Below are positions 23,622-49,864 of a stretch of 64,000 bases of DNA, piece after piece. Below the pieces are notes generated by a model that had not been told where the DNA came from, did not search any database, and saw only the letters and a list, made by a program, of their open reading frames with translations. The DNA lies in contig NZ_JBBMXV010000002.1 in assembly GCF_037996645.1 (NCBI RefSeq), forward strand, positions 124,001-188,000. Direction: 5' to 3'. The translations under genes were made by a program, and so were the position numbers. Within the stretch, counting starts at the first letter, position 1. Each line of letters begins with the position of its first letter. The stretch comes from Halalkalicoccus tibetensis (GTDB lineage Archaea; Halobacteriota; Halobacteria; Halobacteriales; Halalkalicoccaceae).

Positions 23622-24335
23622 TCAGATCCGCTGGGCCGTCGCGTCCGTCGCGCCCTCGACGGTCTCCTCGACGGCCTCACAGCCCTCCTCGTGCAGCAGG
23701 TCCCCGACCACGATCACGTCGGCGTGCTGGGCCATCGTGTTCGCCGACTCGTAGTCGTGAATGCCGCCGCCGTAGAACAGCGTCGCCTCGTCGAGCGCCT
23801 CGCTCGCGGCCTTCACTTTCTCAGGATCGCCGAAGGTGCCCGAGTACTCGATGTAGACGATCGGCTGGCCGAACATGTGTTCGGCGAGTTCGGCGTAGGC
23901 GGCGACGTCCTCGGCCGTCTGGTCGCAGTCGGCCTCGGTGAGCTCGGCGACGCTCGCGTCGGGGTTGAGCACGATGTACGCCTCGGTGAACGTGCGATCC
24001 CAGTCGATCTCGTCGAGGCGGACCCACTCCTTGTGCGCGCCGACGACCCACGAGACGTCGCCCGCGTTGAAGACGGTCGGAACGAGATAGCCGTCAAGCG
24101 CGTCGTCGTCGACGACCACCGCGGGGTTCGAGGGCTCCTGATAGAGCGCCACGTCGTACTTCGCGCAGGCGTCGATGACCGCCTGCATCTTCTCCTCGGT
24201 CATGTCGAGGGTCCCCCCGATCTCGAGGGCGTCGGTCCCGGTCCGACAGACGTCCTCGAAGCTGTCGCCCGGGGCGAGCTCCTTGTCGGGATCGACCTTG
24301 ACGATGTGATCCCAGTCGGTCCACGCTTCGCTCAT
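23622..24335 (-). CDS. Phosphoglycerol geranylgeranyltransferase (GGGP synthase)
   Basis: A 237-residue TIM-barrel enzyme of the PcrB/GGGPS family. It joins geranylgeranyl diphosphate to sn-glycerol-1-phosphate, forming the first ether bond of archaeal membrane lipids. Family features are [11 protein letters not shown] at the N-terminus, [27 protein letters not shown], and the phosphate-binding [10 protein letters not shown] and [10 protein letters not shown] near the C-terminus. Its length is normal. It leads a likely two-gene operon with aspS. Confidence 0.94.
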
Positions 24336-24461
24336 ACGGACTCAATTCAAAGGACGCGCTAAAACCCCTTCGGTGGGGTTCGGGACCCGTAACGGATCGG
24401 GGACGAATCCCCATGGTTTCTTACTTGGCCGATGTCCGGAATCGAAACGATCGCGGACCTT

Positions 24462-24599
24462 TTATTCCCGTGCGAGTTCCTCGTACAGCTCCTCGTGGTC
24501 GTCGATGTCCTTCCGGGCGAGGAACCGAACGAGACGGCGCCGATTCTCCTGCTGGGAGGGATGGTCGTCCGAATCGACGCCGCGTTCGTCGGTGGCCAT
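24462..24599 (-). CDS. 45-residue ORF coupled to doc, candidate antitoxin
   Basis: A short ORF whose ATG lies 2 bases after the doc stop codon, the classical sign of translational coupling. It encodes 45 residues: a disordered, polar N-terminus, then a basic/acidic amphipathic helix ending RRRLVRFLARKDIDDHEELY plus EELARE. I recognise no antitoxin family. Its position as doc's only neighbour on that strand, with no gene upstream of doc, makes it the candidate antitoxin. Its tail resembles that of the 30-residue ORF at 49772, next to a broken Fic/Doc gene. Confidence 0.6.
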   Translation of the reverse strand: MATDERGVDSDDHPSQQENRRRLVRFLARKDIDDHEELYEELARE

Positions 24600-24601
24600 T
24601 C

Positions 24602-25105
24602 TCAATTGGACGTACCGTCTTCGTCGACATAACCGTTGTCCTCGGACGGGAAACCGATCGAGTCGTCTAGGAGGACGGCGTATGCATCGCGATATTCCGA
24701 GGACAGGGGAGTGACGTGTGTCCGAAGATATGTGAGCACCCCCTCCCGGCCGACCGCTTCCGAATCGGTCGCGAACGCTTTGAGGATCGTCTTCACCTCA
24801 CGATCGTACTCGAACGCACGGCCGTTGAGGGCGTAGAAGACGGTCGTCGAGGCCAGTGCCGTCCGCTTGTTGCCGTCGACGAACGGGTGGTTCGAGACGA
24901 GGAGCCGGAGGAGTTGAAACGCCTTTTCGTGAATCGTCTCCGGAACCCGACCGAAGTGCCCTTCGCGGACGAACTCGATAACGTAATCGACGTCCCCGCG
25001 CGAGGACACGCCGGGTTCGGTAGCGTCGTTCGACTCGACGATGACCTCGTGGATCGTAAGCACGTCCTCGCTGGTGAGATGCTCGATCGCTTCGTCACGC
25101 GCCAT
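24602..25105 (-). CDS. doc: Doc-type toxin (Fic/DOC family)
   Basis: A 167-residue Fic-fold protein. The active-site motif HPFVDGNKRTA (about residues 73-83) matches the Doc form HxFxDxNKR, which in P1 Doc phosphorylates EF-Tu, rather than the AMP-transferring HPFxxGNGR of true Fic enzymes. No inhibitory helix motif (S/T)xxxE(G/N) is obvious in the chain, so inhibition should come from a partner. The classical Phd-like antitoxin upstream is missing: only about 98 bases separate it from the divergent DUF2237 gene. A 45-residue ORF follows 2 bases downstream. Confidence 0.85.
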   Translation of the reverse strand: MARDEAIEHLTSEDVLTIHEVIVESNDATEPGVSSRGDVDYVIEFVREGHFGRVPETIHEKAFQLLRLLVSNHPFVDGNKRTALASTTVFYALNGRAFEYDREVKTILKAFATDSEAVGREGVLTYLRTHVTPLSSEYRDAYAVLLDDSIGFPSEDNGYVDEDGTSN

Positions 25106-25203
25106 CGAGTTGCTGTCCGTCGTCGGCCGATAAGTAACTCCGCATCCTACTGATGCTGGTCACGAGTAGCCACCGTTTTCCCGCCTCGACCGAACCCACA
25201 CAC

Positions 25204-25605
25204 ATGAGCGAGGAGGACACCGAGCGCAACGTCTACGGCACCGAGCTGCGCCCCTGTGGCGGGGACCCCGAGACGGGCTTCCTGCGCGACGGCCACTGCC
25301 GACACCTCCGGCGGGACCCGGGGCGCCACGAGGTCTGTGCGGTGCTGACCGAGGGGTTCCTCCAGTTCAGCAAAGCGCAGGGCAACGACCTCGTGACGCC
25401 CCAGCCCGAGATGAACTTCCCCGGGCTGGAAGCGGGCGACCGCTGGTGTCTCTGCCTGCCCCGCTGGATCGAGGCCCGCGAGGCCGGACGCGCACCGCCG
25501 ATCGTGCTCGAGGCGACCCACGAGCGCGCGCTCGACGAGATCGAGCCCGACACGCTCCGGGAGTACGAGTACGACCCGCATACCGAAGACACGCGGGGCG
25601 AGTGA
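25204..25605 (+). CDS. DUF2237 family protein
   Basis: A 133-residue soluble protein with the DUF2237 pattern. It begins NVYGTELRPCGGDPETGFLRDG, split by a cysteine, then CRHLRRDPGRHEVCAVLT, QGNDLVTPQPEMNFPGL and GDRWCLCLPRWIEA, and ends with conserved VLEATHERALDEI. The family has no established function. Several conserved cysteines suggest metal binding or redox sensitivity. I chose the ATG at 25204 because the conserved region starts there; the frame is open from 25153. It converges on topA with a 9-base gap. Confidence 0.88.
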   Translation: MSEEDTERNVYGTELRPCGGDPETGFLRDGHCRHLRRDPGRHEVCAVLTEGFLQFSKAQGNDLVTPQPEMNFPGLEAGDRWCLCLPRWIEAREAGRAPPIVLEATHERALDEIEPDTLREYEYDPHTEDTRGE

Positions 25606-49277: not shown

Positions 49278-49766
49278 ATGTGTGACTGTCCCCCGCGGAT
49301 CACCGATCTATCTTCACTGGAGGCGGAGAACTTCAAATTCAGGAACACGCAGTTCTTGACCGGGGACACCCATTATGATATACAAGCCCACGAGACCCGA
49401 CAGAGTCTTCGGCATGATATATGGGCTGTCCGGAATGGTGACATTCGTTGAATCTTAGATGAATTCCCGACTGACGAACCGGTCGTTGATCAGTGTGCGC
49501 TCTGGATGCATTCCGTCGTCGGAAAGCATTTCTTCCCCGATGCCAACCACCGAACGGCAATCGCACTGCTCAGGCGACTACTCCGCGACAATGGGATCGA
49601 TCCTGGCGACTGGTCGAGTGAGAGGACGAAAGCGGCGCGAGATGAATCCCATGAAGTGCGTGGGGAACTCCCACAGATCCGATTCGATACCATGTTCGAA
49701 CGGGATGCCCTCTATGACGTCTGGGAGAGTTACTTCGAGGACGTGTTAGACGTAGACGGCTGCTAA
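49278..49766 (+). pseudogene. Fic/Doc-family gene interrupted by an in-frame TGA
   Basis: One continuous frame encodes a Fic-fold protein except for a TGA at 49449-49451 (codon 58). Before the stop: a start MCDCPPRITDLSSLEAENF and QSLRHDIWAVRNGDIR. After it: ILDEFPTDEPVVDQCALWM, then HSVVGKHFFPDANHRTAIAL, the Fic/Doc active-site motif HxFxDANxR with the lysine of Doc replaced by histidine. The C-terminus is FEDVLDVDGC. A shorter product from the ATG at 49506 would keep the motif but lack the N-terminal half. The region has lower GC than its surroundings, a sign of transfer. Confidence 0.8.
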
Positions 49767-49771
49767 ATGAA

Positions 49772-49864
49772 CTACTCGTCGTCGCTCTCGTCGGCTAGCG
49801 CAGCATACAGGTCGTGGTTCTCTTCCACGTCCTTCGCCATGTCACGCTCGGATTCCCAGTTCAT
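49772..49864 (-). CDS. 30-residue ORF next to the broken Fic/Doc gene
   Basis: A tiny ORF with a perfect GGAGGT directly before its ATG at 49864, one of the best Shine-Dalgarno matches in the window. It encodes MNWESERDMAKDVEENHDLY followed by AALADESDDE, an acidic amphipathic helix. It faces the Fic/Doc remnant tail to tail with a 5-base gap. Its centre (DVEENHDLYAALADE) resembles the tail of the 45-residue ORF at 24462 (DIDDHEELYEELARE), which is coupled to an intact doc. Family unknown. The next 228 bases (to 50092) hold no gene. Confidence 0.5.
   Translation of the reverse strand: MNWESERDMAKDVEENHDLYAALADESDDE

Follow-up and report, generated by a model that had tools for sequence, protein, structure and literature searches.

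Very likely a mobile, reverse-order toxin-antitoxin module: a small conserved partner encoded downstream of Doc in haloarchaea

The Phd-Doc module of phage P1 and its chromosomal relatives pairs a Doc-family toxin, which has the HxFxD[GA]NKR motif and the Doc fold, with a small partner gene for a Phd/YefM antitoxin located upstream of doc. A short C-terminal helical peptide of Phd neutralises Doc (PMC9207808, PMC4803016), with Phd residues 52-73 alone inhibiting Doc (PMC9207808), and the C-terminus of an Enterococcus Phd reportedly dimerises Doc while leaving the active site uncovered (PMC13034048). Bacterial Doc phosphorylates EF-Tu. In archaea, a Sulfolobus Doc alone cuts transformation by 3-4 orders and a small protein partner restores it (PMC11065993); the antitoxin of this Sulfolobales pair belongs to family arCOG10132, and its two genes are convergent. 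Fic/Doc toxins with small partners other than Phd are also found in AbrB-Doc composites (e.g., Geobacillus), in which the AbrB partner lies upstream and has a DNA-binding domain, and in Fic-YhfG, with YhfG reported in enterobacteria only. A toxin gene preceding its antitoxin gene is known from MqsRA, HicAB, and HigBA, whose toxins are unrelated to Doc and whose antitoxins bind operators. No archaea-specific toxin-antitoxin system was reported by Makarova et al. 2009.

The window analysed here, a stretch of 64,000 nucleotides from Halalkalicoccus tibetensis, contains a pair that, like Phd-Doc, combines a Doc-family toxin with a small partner gene, but with the toxin gene first and the partner downstream. 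Like the Sulfolobales pair it is an archaeal Doc next to a gene for a small protein, although here the two genes are in tandem rather than convergent. Unlike Phd, AbrB, and the antitoxins of the toxin-first systems, the haloarchaeal partner has no recognised DNA-binding domain, and it has no Phd/YefM match. The layout read from sequence alone, i.e., an intact Doc followed after a 2-base gap by a 45-residue ORF with nothing upstream on its strand, held. The features of the locus are as follows.

24602 to 25105, minus strand: doc, encoding a Fic/Doc-family toxin of 167 aa with the motif HPFVDGNKR (TIGR01550, PF02661)
24462 to 24599 including the stop codon, minus strand: partner ORF of 45 aa downstream of doc, proposed antitoxin
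24465 to 24503, minus strand: segment DDHEELYEELARE with the C-terminal motif of the partner, whose role as the Doc-binding element is proposed from motif conservation, without binding data
25106 to 25162, minus strand: stretch presumed to hold the promoter for doc and the partner, inferred by eye from an A/T-rich element
23622 to 24335, minus strand: GGGP synthase, flanking core gene downstream of the pair (TIGR04147, E 1e-133)
25205 to 25605, plus strand: DUF2237 protein, flanking core gene divergent from doc (PF09996, E 2e-48)
24384 to 25162, no strand: insertion of ~780 bp relative to four congeners, carrying only doc and the partner

The window protein meets the expectation of a Doc-type sequence with an HxFx[DN][AG]NKR motif, scoring above the curated cut-off for TIGR01550 (58.3 bits, E 8e-16; cut-off 38.65) and above the cut-off for Pfam Fic, PF02661 (39 bits, E 1.4e-9; cut-off 24). 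The H, F, D, N, K, and R of HPFVDGNKR show no variation across a 51-row Doc alignment, and the PDB relatives of the protein are Doc toxins. No same-strand gene lies upstream of doc in the window; an A/T-rich element, GTTACTTATC, precedes the doc ATG, and similar elements were seen by eye at comparable places in relatives. The partner starts with an ATG at 24599, 2 nt from the doc TGA, and its C-terminal motif is HxxLYxxLxxE. We found no match above cut-off for it among Pfam or NCBIfam models. Ribosomal protein S15 was rejected as its identity (16.4 bits against a Pfam cut-off of 31, E 0.011; relatives without a match), as were RecX and other weak Pfam matches, which fall below cut-off and are not common to relatives. 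A relationship to SMV1 gp44, a member of arCOG10132, was also rejected (hhalign profile comparison, probability 0.1%).

Doc relatives are present in 197 of 392 haloarchaeal genomes, about half, and a partner profile (A1) matches 183 of the 392. The partner is conserved beside doc: in each of the 150 best Doc matches in these genomes, a partner on the same strand adjoins the 3′ end of doc. It is a small ORF in 148 of them, an in-frame natural fusion of Doc and partner totalling 186 aa in one (locus L165), and in one a 147-aa ORF (locus L081) that ends in LNRETYDALEHE and has the same C-terminal motif. These counts describe the best 150 matches each for Doc and for the partner and do not extend to every Doc; loci that are related also do not count as independent. 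Joining the two lists yielded 109 of the pairs, and 41 were added on inspection of the loci, the Doc matches in question having no counterpart among the 150 best A1 matches and being mostly paired with a 56-aa partner type beyond that profile’s reach. The pairing is not due to chance, since almost all of the haloarchaeal Doc loci examined keep the ORF in this position. At equivalent places NCBI also calls a protein; it usually carries the label “hypothetical protein,” and the haloarchaeal Doc next to it that of a toxin. One such annotated pair is E6P09_RS18805/RS18800 on pHME132 of Haloferax mediterranei.

The length of the partner varies by family (45, 46, 47, 56, 68, and about 40 aa), as does its spacing from doc (1, 2, 4, 25, 28-34, 78, and 105 nt), and each family is tied to a Doc subtype. 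What unites the families is a C-terminus that reads [HN]xx[IVLT]YxxLxxE across 93 partners. The Y, L, and E at positions -7, -4, and -1 were partly built into the search pattern; position -11 was outside it and is H or N in all 93. The window’s 45-aa sequence, used alone as a query, matched 27 plasmids, the best at E 3e-5, and the genera listed for them are haloarchaeal. It is rather divergent, with a pN/pS of 0.68 against other 45-aa partners at near-saturated synonymous sites. Outside the class Halobacteria, a second partner profile (A2) had no match in a sample of 295 genomes of the phylum, and phage records gave no match to the partner family and only distant bacterial Docs as toxin matches. 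Judging from the 295 sampled genomes, the reverse-order Doc module is likely confined to Halobacteria.

Two adjacent, co-inherited protein-coding genes are expected of a type II toxin-antitoxin system, and both properties are shown here. Within partner types the median dN/dS of the partner is 0.10-0.13, while the other two frames of the same DNA give 1.5-2.5; the constraint thus acts at the codon level in one frame only, and the ORF is protein-coding. Doc has a similar dN/dS of 0.05-0.13. The distance matrices of Doc and partner are strongly correlated (Mantel r 0.897 over 91 loci, with 0 of 2000 permutations as high), and the correlation persists within types at r values of 0.86, 0.76, and 0.72, again with 0 of 2000 permutations reaching each.

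A further expectation of a type II system, that it moves as a unit, is also satisfied, both by the two-gene insert as compared to four empty sites and by many plasmid copies of the doc-partner module. Homology between the window and the corresponding loci of the four congeners (L183-L186) ends near 24373-24384 and restarts near 25163 (25215 in L186), with the empty sites holding divergent spacer. The insert is poorer in GC, at 60% for doc and 63% for the partner against 68% for the window. At the same site a fifth congener (G134, locus L211) has a different insert with a Doc of another subtype, its own partner ending in NREIYDALEEE, and one further gene.

This further gene is an 843-bp ORF with a likeness, by eye, to restriction-type proteins. 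The site between the GGGP synthase and DUF2237 genes therefore holds differing Doc-partner inserts in two congeners (window 24384-25162; L211 286-1859) and is empty in four, and it is possible that it is an insertion hotspot.

In a type II system the antitoxin may outlive the toxin but not the reverse. No listed Doc accompanied 41 of the 150 best partner matches, and these loci were read individually: doc was frameshifted or truncated in 22, undetectable within about 1.5 kb upstream of the partner in 18, and intact in 1. An intact doc is thus missing beside 40 of the 150 best partner matches; where degraded, mostly just its 3′ part is left. In contrast, none of the 150 best Doc matches was an intact doc that lacked its partner. 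The decay events are fewer than the loci because related sequences were counted; the one-sidedness itself is shown. On partners lacking an intact doc, constraint persists (median dN/dS 0.21 and 0.18). Retention of the partner upon loss of doc fits an antidote and not an activator.

No Phd-type antitoxin was detected in its place. The Phd/YefM model (PF02604) had no match in the window’s genome and none in 145 haloarchaeal genomes, while matching in 8 of 14 control genomes as a positive control. No gene is conserved upstream of doc in relatives, and an antitoxin encoded there, whether of Phd, AbrB, or another type, was rejected as a candidate. No description of the doc-partner pair was found in the literature searched.

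Structural predictions were obtained with AlphaFold for two relatives and not for the window pair: the natural fusion of L165, and a read-through fusion of locus L066, where the partner is in frame with doc and stop codons were read as Gly. The L165 prediction has a mean pLDDT of 90.6 and a pTM of 0.87, with all five models at 85-91. The L066 prediction has a mean pLDDT of 86.1 and a pTM of 0.87, its five models spreading from 86 down to 55, and its partner helices (about residues 161-190) have a pLDDT of 93-97. With the partner forming ~1/4 of the chain, a pTM of 0.87 suggests that it is confidently placed on Doc, an inference made without coordinates. The partner is thus predicted to pack on Doc, in fused relatives only, with the interface and any overlap with the Phd site uninspected, and fusion models can favour such packing. 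The Doc part of the modelled relatives best matches the Doc structures 3dd7, 3kh2, and 3k33 (TMt 0.7-0.84), which satisfies the expectation of a Doc fold by way of relatives and not the window protein itself.

The partner is conserved with Doc, survives the decay of doc, and occurs in a clade without recognisable Phd, and for these reasons we regard it as very probably the missing antidote. Doc and the 45-aa ORF very likely form a mobile, reverse-order type II toxin-antitoxin module, in which toxicity and neutralisation are inferred, and with similarly high confidence we take the partner to represent a minimal antitoxin family, new to the Pfam and NCBIfam copies searched, its antitoxin role being inferred. 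“Antitoxin” is a strong inference and not a demonstration, as neither toxicity nor neutralisation has experimental support. The original prediction, that the ORF is an unrecognised antitoxin in reverse order, is supported by the conservation, the one-sided decay, and the lack of Phd/YefM. The homologues it proposed to look for beside doc in other haloarchaea were found at all 150 best Doc matches, so that lack of conservation next to doc, which would have refuted it, failed to do so; the other finding that would have counted against it, a separate Phd-like antitoxin elsewhere, was not made in this genome or in the 145 haloarchaeal genomes. Regarding its claim that an intact Doc would be harmful without a partner, the one-sided decay favours the antidote reading, while toxicity itself remains inferred.

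In the proposed mechanism, doc and the partner would be transcribed from one promoter with the toxin gene first, their regulation being inferred. By its family, Doc is a phosphotransferase of the Fic fold; its presumed effect is a block of translation, and its archaeal target, also inferred, would perhaps be aEF1A. The conserved C-terminal helices of the partner would attach to Doc and keep it inactive, by analogy with Phd, whose C-terminal 22 residues are enough to inhibit Doc. From the sufficiency of Phd 52-73 and the action of the Enterococcus Phd C-terminus, it follows that a C-terminal helical segment alone would be enough. The Phd hot spots His63, Leu67, and Leu70 are spaced as His35, Tyr39, and Leu42 of the partner, a comparison made by eye that is a lead and not a test.

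Three other readings were weighed against the antitoxin reading. The partner could be a positive accessory of Doc, such as an activator, targeting subunit, or substrate, with Doc needing no antidote; tight co-inheritance and predicted binding would suit any obligate partner. However, an activator would be expected to become dispensable with, or before, its enzyme, and 40 partners lack an intact doc while no doc lacks a partner, making this reading very unlikely. The antidote could instead be a separate protein of Phd, AbrB, or other type encoded elsewhere, with the small ORF merely hitch-hiking. AbrB is a known bacterial Doc partner, and AbrB/MazE-type domains do occur in the window’s genome (6 matches). 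Yet the insert has no AbrB gene, its sole contents being doc and the small ORF, Phd/YefM is undetected across the 145 haloarchaeal genomes, and the small-ORF family is under purifying selection and occurs at every Doc locus examined; we consider this reading more improbable still.

The last reading, that the small ORF is untranslated and the conserved stretch is an RNA or the 3′ part of the doc message, draws on the shortness of the ORF and on broken loci retaining mainly the 3′ end of doc beside it. It is all but excluded by codon-level constraint restricted to one frame, by the in-frame fusion to Doc, by the motif closing a 147-aa ORF, and by NCBI’s protein calls at equivalent places. Under the favoured antitoxin reading, the finding supplies the missing partner for the Doc of about half of the sampled haloarchaeal genomes, and the small size of the partner makes it a minimal antitoxin with which the silencing of a Fic enzyme by a short helix could be studied.

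The window contains a second Fic-like gene facing a small ORF.

49278 to 49766, plus strand: second Fic-like gene (Pfam Fic) with the motif HFFPDANHRTA, broken by an in-frame stop at 49449-49451
49772 to 49864, minus strand: 30-codon ORF, MNWESERDMAKDVEENHDLYAALADESDDE, convergent to the second Fic gene and ending about 11 nt from its stop

The second Fic gene was matched by Pfam Fic in the genome scan, its 3′ part at 23.8 bits, and some relatives in other haloarchaea have a frame of about 170 aa without such a stop. About a dozen relatives that were read have a similar convergent ORF 6-10 nt from the Fic stop. The NxxLYxALADE of this ORF resembles the C-terminus of the Doc partners, and the ORF could possibly be the antitoxin of the second Fic family. 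A bolder reading, which we put forward tentatively and hold to be a little more likely wrong than right, is that haloarchaea, apparently without Phd, restrain Fic/Doc toxins with a short shared C-terminal peptide, [HN]xx[IL]YxxL[AE]x[ED]. The proteins bearing this peptide would be about 30 to 147 residues long and would be encoded in one of three ways: by a tandem gene downstream of the toxin gene, by a fusion with the toxin, or by a convergent gene behind the second Fic family (at 49.8 kb). Solitary partners would then be anti-addiction genes that counter incoming Doc modules, an idea that the solitary copies make testable.

Solitary partners with no doc detectable upstream are those of loci L128, L132, L133, L136, L137, L139, L140, and L142, and further ones are those of L143, L148-L150, L152-L154, and L158. 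When they are pooled with the partners beside a broken doc, purifying selection persists, and solitary constrained partners could possibly indicate a function beyond Doc. The Docs of loci L079 and L167 are longer (275 and 246 aa), and their partners, at about 40 aa, end in NHKKIYEDLxxE.
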